Source: a virus
Length of the DNA stretch: 24,696 bases
Direction: 5' to 3' (one strand)
Virus record (IMG/VR): IMGVR_UViG_3300029787_000316
Coordinates: 1-24,696 of that record
A program made the position numbers and the translations under genes. Each line of letters opens with the position of its first letter. The stretch's first letter is position 1. Below the pieces are notes generated by a model. The model saw only the letters and a program-made list of their open reading frames with translations, was not told where the DNA came from and searched no databases. Shown in pieces: positions 3,845 through 20,232 of this stretch.

Positions 3845-4486
3845 TTATCCTTCTAGGTTTGCAATGTTAATATTGCCTGAGATTGATATTCTTTCCCCGT
3901 CATTGTCGTAAAACGGGAAAACCTGATGAAGCATGGTTGAGGGAAACATAACCATGTAACCTTCTGCTTCTTTCTCCATGTTGTAGGCAAAGGTTGACAC
4001 CCTGCCCAACGTATTTGTGTAGCTAAATGCAAAGTTAGATATGTGGTTATCTGCATTTGAGTTGGCACAAATAAAAAGTTTCTTCTGCTCTGCATAGGAC
4101 GTAGGTATCTGCATCCATATGACAAAGCTGTACACACCACTGTGATCATGCGGTGGGTTAAACTCATGCTGCTTCTGGAAGTTTACCCAGAGGCTTTCCA
4201 AGTTCCAACCCTCACCCTCCTGCATAGTTTCACGCCAAGGTCCACCATACGCCTCAATGTGGCTTTGAATAAACGAGGGCAGTAGCTCAGTCACAAACTC
4301 ATTGAGTAAAGGTGAGTCACCGTCCAGCCTAATAGACGTACTTATGTTACCTGCAAGTTCAGGCTTCATGTCCTCTGGCTGTTCTCGTGCTTCGTTTACA
4401 ACTTTCCATATGTTATCCACAACGTCCTCTGGGAGTTGCCCCTCGACAACCCCTACGTTTGGAAAGTTTCGTTGTATTAAGTCCAT
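3845..4486 (-). CDS. 2-oxoglutarate/Fe(II)-dependent oxygenase-like protein
   Basis: A 213-aa protein with the layout of a phage 2OG-Fe(II) oxygenase. A histidine-rich motif PPHDHSGVYSFV (H113, D114, H115) is followed ~70 residues later by LHQVFPF with H187, then by GERISISGNI with R199, the usual place for the arginine that binds the 2OG carboxylate. The middle VSTFAYNMEKEAEGYMVMFPS fits the strand before the distal histidine. Such enzymes oxidise protein or small-molecule substrates with Fe(II), O2 and 2OG; the substrate here is unknown. The first motif is H-D-H rather than a plain H-x-D, so which residues bind iron is uncertain. The gene starts two bases after the tail-fibre stop, with AGAAGG as ribosome binding site inside the end of the fibre gene. 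Confidence 0.8.
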   Translation of the reverse strand: MDLIQRNFPNVGVVEGQLPEDVVDNIWKVVNEAREQPEDMKPELAGNISTSIRLDGDSPLLNEFVTELLPSFIQSHIEAYGGPWRETMQEGEGWNLESLWVNFQKQHEFNPPHDHSGVYSFVIWMQIPTSYAEQKKLFICANSNADNHISNFAFSYTNTLGRVSTFAYNMEKEAEGYMVMFPSTMLHQVFPFYDNDGERISISGNINIANLEG

Positions 4487-8132: not shown

Positions 8133-8834
8133 TTACGCTGCAATTTTTGTCCATCCGGGAGATTGAGACGGCGTTGTGGTACTATACCCCGGAACTTGAG
8201 ACGGCGTTACGGTACTATACCCCGGATTTTGATCTGGGACAATACTTCCCCAAACAAGAACCTGACCAACACCACCTGTGGCTGCCACGCCTGTTACAGA
8301 CACGTCGTTACTTACAGAGATGGTAACTGACCCTACAGAGCCCGTGCCCGTTACACCCGTAGCGTTAATATTTGCGTCTGCCGTTGCAATGACAGAACCT
8401 ACAGAGCCCGTTGCTGCTACGCCAGTGACGGTTATATTGGAGTCCGCTGTGACGACAACAGAACCCACAGAACCTGTTCCCGCTACACCCGTAGCGTTAA
8501 TATTTGCGTCTGCTGTTACAGTGACCGAGCCTACAGAGCCCGTGCCCGCTATTCCAGTGGCATTAATATTTGCGTCTGCCGTTACAGTGGCAGAACCCAC
8601 AGAACCTGTTGCTGCTATTCCAGTGGCATTAATATTTGCATCTGCCGTTACAGTGACAGAACCTACAGAACCTGTTCCCGCTAGTCCAGTAGCAGGGACA
8701 TTAGCTGTTGCAACAACCGTTACAGAACCTGTTTGTCCCGTTGCGCCTGTGTTTGTAATAGAGTCTTGGCCCCAAGAGAGTTGACCCCACGTTCCTCGAC
8801 CCCAACCAGAGAGAGGAACGATAATATCAGTCAT
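8133..8834 (-). CDS. Repeat-built tail/virion protein, 233 aa
   Basis: Begins MTDIIVPLSGWGRGTWGQLSWG; the GWGRGTWG motif is shared with the 703-aa nozzle-like protein. Residues ~31-194 are about seven and a half 22-residue units of consensus ATGxAxTGSVGSVTVTADAN. The C-terminus has a different repeat of 11 residues (PGYSTVTPSQ, VPGYSTTTPSQ, SPGWTKIA). Composition is almost only G, A, T, V, S, N and D, predicting a stacked beta fold such as a beta solenoid or a string of small beta domains. It lies directly upstream of the fibre gene in transcription order and overlaps the stop of the 147-aa gene by one base (TAATG). A fibre, fibre-connector or decoration role is inference. Confidence 0.85.
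   Translation of the reverse strand: MTDIIVPLSGWGRGTWGQLSWGQDSITNTGATGQTGSVTVVATANVPATGLAGTGSVGSVTVTADANINATGIAATGSVGSATVTADANINATGIAGTGSVGSVTVTADANINATGVAGTGSVGSVVVTADSNITVTGVAATGSVGSVIATADANINATGVTGTGSVGSVTISVSNDVSVTGVAATGGVGQVLVWGSIVPDQNPGYSTVTPSQVPGYSTTTPSQSPGWTKIAA
8253..8744. repeat. 66-bp tandem repeats (about 7.5 copies)
   Basis: The word attaatatttgc recurs on the plus strand with 66- and 132-base spacing (for example near 8495, 8561 and 8627). Each 66-bp unit encodes one 22-residue protein repeat. The copies are much more alike than the fibre repeats, with mostly third-position and a few coding changes, so they look recently amplified. A second small repeat of 33 bp lies at about 8165-8230 (gagacggcgtt words 33 bases apart). 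Confidence 0.9.
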
Positions 8835-17261: not shown

Positions 17262-17714
17262 CTAGAAATGAAGAACGTCTTCAGGTGATGATATTTTTGC
17301 AAGGACTTCATCATCATTAAGAATCCTCACTTCACCACCTTCAATTCTAAAACGGGAACCAGCATACCGGGCAAACATCACCCAGCTACCCTTCTCGCAC
17401 CAAGGACCGTCCGGAAATTTATCGGCGTCCTTATAAGCCAGTTCTCCTACCTTGAGAACGTAACCAACTTGCGTTGAAACTGCATTGTCTTCGATAATTT
17501 TATCAGGAAGATAAATACCGCTTTCCGTTTTTCCTTTGCCACGATAGGGCAAAATAAGAAGCCGCCACCCAGTGGGAGAGGGCATTCTATCTAGGAGGGA
17601 TTGCCCGATTGCATCGGGGTCTAACACTCTATCAGACTTTTCTTTGTAAGCCTGTGATATGTCTTCAACAGCATCTTTCACTGCTGATAAGTCTATTTTC
17701 TGCGTCTCAGTCAT
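17262..17714 (-). CDS. Phage GroES-like co-chaperonin (Cpn10)
   Basis: A 150-aa protein with an N-terminal extension of ~45 residues, then a Cpn10 fold. RLLILPYRGKGKTESGIYLPDKIIEDNAVSTQVGYVLKVGELAYKD covers the mobile loop (GIYL at residues 66-69, matching the GIVL GroEL-contact tripeptide) and GYVLKVG matches the GxVxxVG turn. The later WCEKGSWVMFARYAGSRFRIEGGEVRILNDDEVLAKI matches the C-terminal barrel. It would cap host GroEL during capsid protein folding, as T4 gp31 does. It overlaps the 65-aa gene by eight bases, with GGAG upstream. Position before the scaffold and capsid genes supports that role. Confidence 0.9.
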   Translation of the reverse strand: MTETQKIDLSAVKDAVEDISQAYKEKSDRVLDPDAIGQSLLDRMPSPTGWRLLILPYRGKGKTESGIYLPDKIIEDNAVSTQVGYVLKVGELAYKDADKFPDGPWCEKGSWVMFARYAGSRFRIEGGEVRILNDDEVLAKISSPEDVLHF

Positions 17715-17904: not shown

Positions 17905-17910
17905 TCATAC

Positions 17911-17994
17911 CTCGCATATCATCTAACAATTTATGATAATGTCCTAGCACAGTTTATATAGGATATGCTAGGACAAAGTATAAAGATATGCGAG
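17911..17994 (-). promoter_or_regulatory. Nested inverted repeats overlapping a ribosome binding site
   Basis: Outer arms CTCGCATATC (17911-17920) and GATATGCGAG (17985-17994) and inner arms GTCCTAGCA (17941-17949) and TGCTAGGAC (17966-17974) are all perfect. In the minus-strand transcript the 3' outer arm contains most of the GAGG site of the 65-aa gene. A possible -10 (TATACT, 17977-17982) lies between the arms. The inner stem has no U-tract after it, so it is not an obvious terminator. Confidence 0.6.
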
Positions 17995-18008
17995 TTAACT
18001 TAAAACCC

Positions 18009-18464
18009 TTAAACCATTAGCTCAAAATGAGGCCCATCAATAAAAGGACGCCTGCCTTCGCTACGACGCAAATCTATGTACGCGTTCATAGCTTCTTCCA
18101 TTGTACCATCCCACTCACGAATATCTGGGATATGCCATGCGGCACCCCAACGAATACCAACTCCAGCAGCTTCGGCACCTTCTTTCATGGCATCAGCAAG
18201 ATCATCGTACAAATTCAATTCCCACGACCCTCTTGATCCAATATAGGCCATGAGGTCCACGGCGTGGCCGCCAAGATGTTTTGATTTCATGGTTTTACTT
18301 GCGCCTTTGGCGACGAGTTCTCGTTGTTCTTCCATAGTTCGTAACCCGCAGATCACGCCAAAATCAATCTTTGTGACGGCGATAGCATAGTCAACGACTG
18401 CGATTAGCCCGACATCTACTCCCTCTAATCTGTCTCGACTTCGTTTAGATAGTTTAAATGTCAT
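18009..18464 (-). CDS. M15-type peptidase endolysin (L-Ala-D-Glu / D,D-peptidase-like)
   Basis: A 151-aa M15-type peptidase. G40-L-R42-T-M-E-E-Q is followed by S61-K-H63-L-G-G66-H-A68-V-D70, the SxHxxGxAxD zinc motif, and D143-G-P-H146, matching the catalytic D and third zinc H of T5-type endolysin. It would cut peptide crosslinks of the cell wall at the end of infection. No signal peptide, so it needs a holin to reach the wall. The ATG overlaps the stop of the 26-aa ORF (ATGA), with AAGGGG upstream. T5-type enzymes need calcium; an EF-hand gene lies in the same cassette. Confidence 0.92.
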   Translation of the reverse strand: MTFKLSKRSRDRLEGVDVGLIAVVDYAIAVTKIDFGVICGLRTMEEQRELVAKGASKTMKSKHLGGHAVDLMAYIGSRGSWELNLYDDLADAMKEGAEAAGVGIRWGAAWHIPDIREWDGTMEEAMNAYIDLRRSEGRRPFIDGPHFELMV

Positions 18465-18541
18465 TTTGTTTTCCCCTTGTAATACAAAACGCCAAACAGC
18501 TTGTATTTAATTCTGTAGTATAAGTTTATTATTACGGTCAT
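18461..18541 (-). CDS. Very small ORF, 26 aa, inside the lysis cassette
   Basis: MTVIINLYYRIKYKLFGVLYYKGKTK is short and aromatic. Its ATG has GGAGGT six bases upstream and overlaps the stop of the 54-aa gene (ATGA). Its stop overlaps the endolysin ATG (ATGA). The exact overlaps and excellent ribosome binding site support translation, though it may only act to pass ribosomes to the endolysin gene. No domain visible. Confidence 0.55.
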   Translation of the reverse strand: MTVIINLYYRIKYKLFGVLYYKGKTK

Positions 18542-18702
18542 ATTTTTACCTCCAAACACGCTACGGCAATCCCATTATGAGTTACCATAACCTCCGCACG
18601 TTTTTTATTTGTTTCGCATTCAGTCTTAGTTTCGTAAACAGCCAACTGAAAGTGATCTACAGGCTGTCCTGATATTAATTGCATCCAAACCAAAACCCAC
18701 AT
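18538..18702 (-). CDS. Small protein with hydrophobic N-terminus, 54 aa
   Basis: MWVLVWMQLISGQPVDHFQLAVYETKTECETNKKRAEVMVTHNGIAVACLEVKI. A hydrophobic start (residues 1-11) precedes a small domain with two cysteines (C29, C49), possibly a disulfide. Similar small proteins with YxTKxEC...A.VMVTHN..AVACL patterns are common in marine phages. The ATG overlaps the stop of the 69-aa gene (TGATG). Its start is also coupled by spacing, and its own stop overlaps the next ATG. Confidence 0.75.
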   Translation of the reverse strand: MWVLVWMQLISGQPVDHFQLAVYETKTECETNKKRAEVMVTHNGIAVACLEVKI

Positions 18703-18911
18703 CAACTAGAAAGCTTCTTTTTAAGCCACAGAACAATTGCAAATACCACAAGGCCATAAACCGTAGCAACGGTAACATCGACTAAATGCTCACGCATATG
18801 ATAGATAAACTCTATACCTGCTTCAACATCGCTACCACCACCCGTGCCAATGTTGATTGTTTTGGTTCCTATGGTAGACGCTTGCTGTTCAATGATAATA
18901 TCGTTTTCCAT
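18702..18911 (-). CDS. Small single-pass membrane protein, 69 aa
   Basis: MENDIIIEQQASTIGTKTINIGTGGGSDVEAGIEFIYHMREHLVDVTVATVYGLVVFAIVLWLKKKLSS. One membrane segment at residues ~45-63 is followed by KKK, with a Gly-rich soluble N-terminus. Position after the holin-like gene and before the endolysin suggests a lysis-accessory role such as antiholin or spanin-type helper; this is context only. The ATG overlaps the upstream stop (TAATG). Confidence 0.7.
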   Translation of the reverse strand: MENDIIIEQQASTIGTKTINIGTGGGSDVEAGIEFIYHMREHLVDVTVATVYGLVVFAIVLWLKKKLSS

Positions 18912-19300
18912 TACTTTTTACCTAAAAATTGTTTGACACCTTTCACACCAAAACTAGCCGAAATTGCAGTTAAAAGCGCCCAGAAGTACCAGTCGGGTGC
19001 AAGAGAAAGTTGCTCAAACCCATGAGCAACAACGCCTTCCATACCCGGAATAAAACATAAAATAAGTGGGATTGCTAGAATTATAGAAAAAAACTCGTCC
19101 TTCCACGATCCACCAGAGTTCTCGGCCATGATCCGTTCCCAGTCAGCCGTCGAAGTCTCTTTAGAGAGTAAGATTTTTGCCTTACTCTCAGCCTCTACAA
19201 GTTTAAGTTGTGCAGCCGCAGCTTGCTTATCAGCCTTTCCTTGAAGCCATGACCCTGCCAGATTAGCGACGGGGCCAATAAAAGAGGATATTATACTCAT
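18911..19300 (-). CDS. Holin-like membrane protein, 129 aa
   Basis: The N-terminal amphipathic part is MSIISSFIGPVANLAGSWLQGKADKQAAAAQLKLVEAESKAKIL. WERIMAENSGGSWKDEFFSIILAIPLILCFIPGMEGV follows and then WYFWALLTAISASFGVKGVKQFLGKK. The SWKDEFF..ILxIPLILCFIPGMxxxV block, two C-terminal membrane segments and a short basic tail fit a phage holin-like family seen in marine podoviruses. A holin releases or permits the endolysin to reach the wall. The start overlaps the EF-hand gene stop by four bases (ATGA). Confidence 0.72.
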   Translation of the reverse strand: MSIISSFIGPVANLAGSWLQGKADKQAAAAQLKLVEAESKAKILLSKETSTADWERIMAENSGGSWKDEFFSIILAIPLILCFIPGMEGVVAHGFEQLSLAPDWYFWALLTAISASFGVKGVKQFLGKK

Positions 19301-19656
19301 TTTTCTAAGTTCCTATCATCAAAAGTAATGGATGCTTTCTTCTTGTCTGCGTTTGCAGAGTAGGCATTGAACCCCATAAACGCAGCAACAACACCAGACG
19401 CAGCTATCACATAAACAGATGCAATGTCCGTTATAAGGGAAGCCGCTTTGTCAAAGCCAAGCACCGAAGATAGCAAGATAATAAGCGGATACAAAAGCAT
19501 TCCAGCTAAAGCAAACCCGGTAAACCTACGTTCCGCATTGCGCTTGAGGTCCCGGTCAACCATCTCAAGCCTACGATCTTCTAAGGCAAGACGATTCCAT
19601 TCTTTTCTATCTATATAGCCGTTAGAGTCTAAATCCGCTTTATCAAACTCAGTCAT
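19297..19656 (-). CDS. EF-hand membrane protein, 119 aa
   Basis: Residues 8-19 form a canonical EF-hand loop: D8, D10, N12, G13, I15, D16 and E19 all fall in the expected positions (D-x-D-x-N-G-x-I-D-x-x-E). A charged helix follows (RRLEMVDRDLKRNAERR). Two membrane segments lie at ~46-67 (FTGFALAGMLLYPLIILLSSVLG) and ~77-98 (TDIASVYVIAASGVVAAFMGFN). It should bind Ca2+ on one side of the membrane. It sits two positions ahead of the holin-like gene's neighbours in the lysis chain. A calcium-sensing or membrane accessory role is inference. The stop and start overlap neighbours on both sides. Confidence 0.8.
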   Translation of the reverse strand: MTEFDKADLDSNGYIDRKEWNRLALEDRRLEMVDRDLKRNAERRFTGFALAGMLLYPLIILLSSVLGFDKAASLITDIASVYVIAASGVVAAFMGFNAYSANADKKKASITFDDRNLEK

Positions 19657-19768
19657 TTATCTTCCTCGCGTATGCTATAGCAAGTTTTCGTTCTACTGTT
19701 ATTATAACTACTTTTCCACGTTTGTCATATACAACGTATTTTCCTAATTTATTTTGGTATAATCTCAC
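19649..19768 (-). CDS. Small ORF, 39 aa, GTG start
   Basis: MRLYQNKLGKYVVYDKRGKVVIITVERKLAIAYARKIND, starting with a GTG that overlaps the stop of the upstream membrane protein gene (GTGA). It ends eight bases inside the EF-hand gene. Content is coding-like (Lys/Val/Ile/Tyr, no rare runs), with GGTGGG upstream. Similar KxVVYDKxGKVVIIT strands occur in small phage proteins, from memory. Too short to assign function. Confidence 0.55.
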   Translation of the reverse strand: MRLYQNKLGKYVVYDKRGKVVIITVERKLAIAYARKIND

Positions 19769-20232
19769 CCATTAGCCCACCGATCTGCACCCCAGATCAA
19801 CAGTGCCGTTCCAGCTACAAAAAGTACAACACCAACAACAACCGACAAAATATAAAACACACGGTCTCTGTGAGCAGCTTGAGCTTCCAGAGCTTCCTTC
19901 TGCCGAACACGCGCAGCAGCGGTTTCCCTGACCACCGCGTCCCACATTCCAACGGGCCCATACAAGCGGCAGGCGGACCTCAATTCCTCTTGAGCTTGTT
20001 TGTGCGCCATTTTTGCCTGCGCAATAGCGAACCCTTCTTCTTCGCTGGACGTAAGCCTGCCCAGCGGTCCTTTGTGTTTTCCAGATTCTGCTAAATTTAT
20101 ATCAGCTTCCAATTTGGCAAGTTTACCAAACGCGGGAAGCAAGGCGTGTGTATCTTTTCCTGCCTTAATAGCTGCGCTTATGCCGCCTGCTATTTTTGTG
20201 ACAGCACCCGCCAAGGCCAATACCTCAATCAT
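19765..20232 (-). CDS. Membrane-anchored coiled-coil protein, 155 aa
   Basis: MIEVLALAGAVTKIAGGISAAIKAGKDTHALLPAFGKLAKLEADINLAESGKHKG, then helical EEEGFAIAQAKMAHKQAQEELRSACRLYGPVGMWDAVVRETAAARVRQKEALEAQAAHRDR, then a C-terminal membrane segment (VFYILSVVVGVVLFVAGTALLIW, residues ~126-148). The ATG at 20232 is chosen because AAAGGGG lies eight bases upstream; the alternative GTG at 20241 would sit directly on that site. This is a conserved protein of marine phages of unknown function. First gene of the coupled lysis chain. The layout could serve an inner-membrane spanin or holin helper. Confidence 0.78.
   Translation of the reverse strand: MIEVLALAGAVTKIAGGISAAIKAGKDTHALLPAFGKLAKLEADINLAESGKHKGPLGRLTSSEEEGFAIAQAKMAHKQAQEELRSACRLYGPVGMWDAVVRETAAARVRQKEALEAQAAHRDRVFYILSVVVGVVLFVAGTALLIWGADRWANG

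Follow-up and report, generated by a model that had tools for sequence, protein, structure and literature searches.

An EF-hand protein with a predicted membrane hairpin in the lysis cassettes of marine phages

Introduction

The minus strand of the IMG/VR virus record IMGVR_UViG_3300029787_000316, a stretch of 24,696 bases referred to here in its entirety as the window, carries eight open reading frames (ORFs) between positions 20232 and 18009, in the order g155, g39, EF, hol, g69, g54, g26 and M15. The product of one of them, EF, combines an EF-hand with two predicted transmembrane (TM) helices. The locus raises two questions: what an EF-hand protein is doing among lysis genes, and whether these overlapping genes are expressed as one unit timed at the first start codon, as a first-pass annotation of the sequence had proposed. 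The eight genes make up a modular lysis cassette, and the phage that carries them is a marine relative of HMO-2011 and of the roseophages CRP-901 and CRP-902. Cassettes that bring together several membrane proteins through ATGA overlaps are already known, and the new element is the EF-hand gene, which belongs to a conserved EF-hand/two-TM family found beside unrelated endolysins in many aquatic phages that are themselves unrelated. The first-pass annotation listed the gene but did not note this family. Related loci were compared, 242 at first and 338 finally.

An EF-hand on a predicted membrane hairpin

The EF gene (19297..19656, minus strand) encodes an EF-hand and two-TM holin-like protein of 119 amino acids (aa). 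Its EF-hand loop is DLDSNGYIDRKE (residues 8-19; codons at 19600..19635, minus strand), and the predicted helices TM1 (residues 48-66; 19459..19515, minus strand) and TM2 (residues 78-96; 19369..19425, minus strand) follow. The canonical loop and, after it, a two-helix membrane hairpin are present in 169 of 175 unique family members; the six without an intact loop comprise three truncated at contig ends, one with a single substitution and two that lack the domain. Across 15 representatives with less than 60% identity, the only columns that are occupied in every sequence and never vary are loop positions 1, 6 and 12 (D1, G6, E12); positions 3 and 5 are limited to D, N or S and position 8 to I, V or L. 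One EF subclade has Ser at position 6. Synonymous codons vary at the conserved residues (GAT 144 and GAC 50 at position 1; GAA 107 and GAG 87 at position 12).

The family profile matches calmodulin EF-hands in the PDB (E = 1e-8), and 36 of 41 diverse members individually match Pfam EF-hand_5 (E <= 0.1), with the window's own protein lying slightly under the Pfam EF-hand cut-off (23.7 vs 25.9 bits). Phage_holin_3_6 (PF07332, superfamily III) is matched weakly by 10 of the 41 members (best E = 9e-4), and the window's protein did not reach the curated cut-off of this model (15.8 vs 28.4 bits). In each of the 169 loop-bearing members, hydropathy and charge point to two hydrophobic segments whose flanks hold more K+R than the loop between them, and cytoplasmic ends (N-in/C-in) are therefore predicted. 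An AlphaFold2 (AF2) model computed from 41 sequences contains a helix at residues 3-7, a loop at 8-16 and further helices at 17-66 and 69-107, which at moderate confidence correspond to a helix-loop-helix and then a TM hairpin; there is a single hand, and pairing would need an oligomer. A structure search with this model returned a single viral match, an unnamed protein (E = 9e-4).

Association with unrelated endolysins

An endolysin of one of five unrelated types lies near EF in 142 of 202 non-redundant loci (M15 in 65, GH19 in 48, GH108 in 20, lysozyme in 7 and amidase in 2), while 38 of the remaining loci end too soon and 22 are without an endolysin within 2.5 kb. Of the loci that the EF query retrieved, 98 had enough sequence, and 91 of these have an endolysin no more than 2.5 kb downstream. 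The association extends to at least eight of the 15 divergent representatives, with GH19 in L286, GH108 in L246, lysozyme in L254 and L151, and M15 in L028, L249, L008 and L252. A CRP-207 seed annotated as lysozyme was dropped from the endolysin counts; it had pulled in coiled-coil proteins and was without a Pfam match.

EF, an M15 endolysin and a spanin-like gene stand directly in a row in roseophages CRP-1 and CRP-9, and no hol-family gene or other holin family was found in the stretch examined there. In CRP-345 EF is followed by a gene annotated spanin2 and next by an endolysin, and CRP-810 has the order EF, holin, GH108. The freshwater Limnohabitans phage DC31 carries g155, EF, one further gene and an L-alanyl-D-glutamate peptidase, and in locus L338 (223-2246) EF follows a Peptidase_C93-like gene, a few genes ahead of an overlapping i-spanin/o-spanin-like pair.

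The lysis cassette and its relatives

The hol gene (18911..19300, minus strand) encodes a 129-aa holin-like protein of phrog_2524, a family annotated as of unknown function. A Pfam search gave no match between the window's hol and PF11351, the gene transfer agent (GTA)-type three-TM (3TM) holins of PHROG lysis family phrog_3427, but a homologous family that occupies the hol slot in relatives, here called c2, does match directly, and an iterated profile search joins hol to these holins through the c2 proteins. This homology bears out the earlier label of hol as holin-like. The M15 endolysin (18009..18464, minus strand; 151 aa) is kin of the T5 L-alanyl-D-glutamate peptidase and is assigned to the L-Ala-D-Glu peptidase family by its family score (PF13539, 28.4 bits vs a cut-off of 25; phrog_465, 2e-49) and by zinc-ligand motifs: the SKH/D/H motifs are present, with H63, D70 and H146 as candidate ligands by analogy. 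A canonical EF calcium loop was sought in the window's M15 and no such motif was found. Both the EF-hand and the M15 assignments of the first-pass annotation stand, as does its view of the block as a lysis cassette; its statement that at least four members have predicted membrane segments also agrees with the hydrophobic segments of g155, EF (two), hol and g69.

In dozens of marine viral contigs the block again opens with g155-g39-EF-hol and continues with g69, g54, g26 and M15 or some of these. The comparison with related marine phages that had been proposed earlier therefore finds gene order and overlaps conserved: EF and hol overlap by 4, 1 or 8 bases in 101 of 108 loci, g69 and g54 by one base (-1) in 36 of 40, g54 and g26 by four (-4) in 24 of 32, and g26 and M15 by ATGA (-4) in all 24, while hol and M15, where adjacent, overlap by four (-4) in 37 of 45. 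Within this framework the members are exchanged and moved. The hol slot may hold hol, c2 (the GTA holin) or c14, and the endolysin slot M15, GH19, GH108, lysozyme or amidase. In some relatives the EF slot holds c1, a two-TM protein without an EF-hand, to which no homology of EF was detected (hhalign probability 1.3); a weak EF-hol similarity (hhalign probability 14.6) is likewise not claimed as homology. The position of g54 varies between the g155/g39 interval and a place preceding M15, and g69 also moves within the block. One clade keeps g155, EF, g69 and hol in place but has a lysozyme gene elsewhere on the contig, about 29 kb off in L161 if that 45,096-base contig is linear, and CRP-114, classed in the Autographiviridae, has g155 and then a GTA holin just ahead of its DNA maturase genes.

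The closest isolates include CRP-901, CRP-902 and HMO-2011, whose lysis regions carry homologues of g155 and hol in the same order, with a homologue of the 39-aa protein in CRP-901 as well. They differ from the window in that c1 replaces EF and the endolysin is annotated as a chitinase in CRP-901 and CRP-902, and in that HMO-2011 has a phage lysozyme.

Gene overlaps and translational coupling

The eight ORFs and all seven junctions are present exactly as the first-pass annotation listed them: GTGA, an 8-base overlap, ATGA, TAATG, TGATG, ATGA and ATGA, with overlaps of 4, 8, 4, 1, 1, 4 and 4 bases in gene order. The block's junctions overlap in 7 of 7 cases and those in the rest of the window in 8 of 29 (Fisher p = 8e-4), but the test is to some degree circular: their overlapping was part of the reason for calling the 39- and 26-aa ORFs genes. 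When these two are removed, three of five block junctions overlap and the difference is not significant (p = 0.18). The within-window test without the two smallest ORFs leaves room for a chance origin of the overlaps, and it is their conservation in relatives that settles the point. In each of the eight block genes, codon position 3 is where substitutions fall most often.

The first-pass annotation read the chain as one translationally coupled unit with lysis timing set at the g155 start. In favour of this reading, every junction overlaps and the overlaps are kept in relatives; g54, which lacks a Shine-Dalgarno sequence of its own, has almost no predicted pairing, and that of hol and g69 is weak. 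Against this, predicted anti-Shine-Dalgarno pairing is strong for g155, g26 and M15 (-7 to -11 kcal/mol), g26 having its own strong GGAGG and M15 its own AAGGGG, and it is clear for EF (GAGGA, -5.9 kcal/mol). Coupling is at most local because EF, g26 and M15 own good Shine-Dalgarno sequences; relatives, moreover, rearrange, replace or detach members. The claim that lysis timing is fixed at the first start is therefore not supported, and we regard the one-unit reading as very unlikely. The block need not be controlled as a whole from the first start, and local coupling across hol-g69-g54 is plausible; the overlaps themselves are the usual compact packing of phage genes, with translational coupling that is local at most.

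The block ends in a strongly structured spacer (17905..18008, minus strand), a nested dyad with a predicted energy of -32 kcal/mol whose pairing covers the Shine-Dalgarno sequence of the next gene, g65, which lies upstream of a GroES gene. Close relatives share the dyad; in L120, L121 and L122 it varies. The GroES gene itself (17262-17714, minus strand) encodes a phage GroES/Cpn10 co-chaperonin (PF00166, 2.9e-9) and stands just ahead of the head genes.

Other genes of the window

The first gene of the block, g155 (19765..20232, minus strand; 155 aa), belongs to phrog_32327, a family of unknown function with 216 ORFs among the fetched loci. Its product is hydrophobic over a short stretch at the N terminus and has a membrane segment at the C-terminal end (residues 128-146). 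A PDB profile search for its function gave just rhodopsin membrane-helix matches (E about 0.008), which are uninformative. The g39 gene (19649..19768, minus strand; 39 aa, GTG start) shares 4 bases with g155 and 8 with EF, has homologues in 176 loci and encodes a protein without a membrane segment. It appears to be under weaker constraint, because amino-acid-changing codon differences exceed silent ones (87 vs 52). Further along lie g69 (18702..18911, minus strand), whose 69-aa product has a single C-terminal TM segment and a KKK tail; g54 (18538..18702, minus strand), whose 54-aa product contains two Cys and is somewhat hydrophobic at its N terminus; and g26 (18461..18541, minus strand), a conserved 26-aa micro-ORF with homologues in 37 loci. 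Homologues, junctions and the excess of changes at codon position 3 support g39 and g26 as probable genes.

Elsewhere on the minus strand, positions 8133-8834 encode a 233-aa protein with a 66/132-base tandem repeat array, flanked by two tail-region genes. Positions 3845-4486 encode a 213-aa putative 2-oxoglutarate (2OG)-Fe(II) oxygenase (PF13759, 7.7e-11), which adjoins a repetitive protein of 1210 aa that carries a Peptidase_S74 chaperone domain at its C terminus.

Comparison with known lysis systems

The cassette as such is ordinary, as overlapping multi-holin cassettes have already been described in actinophages. Gordonia phages mostly have three or four holin-like genes (PMC9671378) and mycobacteriophage F1 has two (PMC13056207). 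The Gordonia and Mycobacterium cassettes share with the window several overlapping small membrane-protein genes beside an endolysin, but they belong to phages of actinobacterial hosts. The terms EF-hand and calcium are absent from the Gordonia paper (PMC9671378), as is calcium from the mycobacteriophage paper (PMC13056207). Searches of the open-access literature, which leaves most subscription papers outside, turned up no holin-like hairpin that bears an EF-hand.

In its two TM helices, short loop, predicted cytoplasmic ends and cassette position, EF resembles Phage_holin_3_6 proteins and the two-TM N-in/C-in holins of class II type, such as the phage 21 pinholin and mycobacteriophage LysF1a. 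To our knowledge no EF-hand occurs in either group. Calcium-controlled lysis proteins are represented by T5 EndoT5, of the same M15 family as the cassette endolysin, and by the LysGH15 CHAP lysin with its 'EF-hand-like' site; in both the Ca2+ site is within the enzyme, whereas here the predicted site is in a membrane-hairpin protein.

Possible roles of the EF protein

The explanation that we favour, with about equal confidence for and against, is that EF acts in the lysis cassette as a calcium-responsive holin, or as a partner or regulator that gates hol. M15 would cut the peptidoglycan, while hol and EF, the two membrane-hairpin proteins, would most likely govern how the inner membrane is permeabilised, and the predicted cytoplasmic, N-terminal EF-hand of EF would bind Ca2+. 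Cytoplasmic Ca2+ is normally low and seawater contains about 10 mM, so Ca2+ would be expected to enter at the first leak. The entering Ca2+ would load the EF-hands and lead to pairing or oligomerisation, and this loading would turn a local leak into rapid lysis. We infer the Ca2+ binding, membrane topology, lysis role, holin activity and trigger of EF from its sequence and context. The T5 endolysin is calcium-activated (PMC10487532), and calcium control of lysis therefore has a precedent.

Several points weigh against this explanation. Confidence in the AF2 model is only moderate (mean pLDDT, the predicted local distance difference test score, 71; predicted template modelling score, pTM, 0.39), and the five PDB structure matches of the model, all EF-hand entries, are not significant (E > 6). 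A lone EF-hand usually requires a partner. The EF locus counts are not independent, because most fetched loci are close relatives. A second holin-like protein usually adjoins EF, so an antiholin or accessory role is possible, and c1 fills the same slot without an EF-hand or detectable homology, so calcium is not essential to the slot. A different explanation, which we consider possible though short of probable, is an ordinary two-holin cassette in which hol is the holin, EF is an antiholin or accessory protein, and the EF-hand is a structural metal site for Ca2+ or Mg2+ without a role in triggering. It would accord with the known multi-membrane-protein cassettes and their -4 bp ATGA overlaps (PMC9671378, PMC13056207) as well as with c1. 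It fits less well with CRP-1 and CRP-9, where EF is the sole recognised holin-like family beside the endolysin, and with the concentration of the family's strongest conservation on metal-coordinating positions, although the latter is compatible with a structural site too.

A further point against a lysis role comes from T4-like marine phages. In HTVC008M (L243, 4962-5294) and Melnitz (Melnitz-3; L244, 4980-5309) a baseplate-hub gene and the tape measure flank the EF homologue, which is thus distant from the known lysis genes, so a different role is possible there. This location would suit a protein that does not itself act in lysis but is a membrane-anchored factor for assembly, or one associated with the virion, whose gene often accompanies lysis genes. 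As a general account of EF we find this improbable, given that phages with otherwise little in common carry EF next to spanin-like genes and to endolysins of five unrelated families. The paper on Melnitz leaves a holin unmentioned and proposes the curli pore as a pinholin analogue (PMC9004378), and the EF homologue of these two phages is a candidate for either the missing holin or a tail-assembly factor. A bolder form of the calcium explanation, in which the EF family are calcium-gated phage holins whose cytoplasmic EF-hand senses Ca2+ from the first leak and triggers cooperative holes, and in which HTVC008M and Melnitz have their unrecognised holin in the EF homologue, is tentative and in our view rather doubtful.

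Concluding remarks

What sets the moment at which holins trigger is a long-standing question, and a conserved ion-sensor domain would tie the timing of lysis to calcium. The idea is testable by altering two or three residues of the EF-hand loop. For Melnitz, the EF homologue offers a candidate holin, and the family more broadly suggests that some phages may time the bursting of their hosts with calcium.

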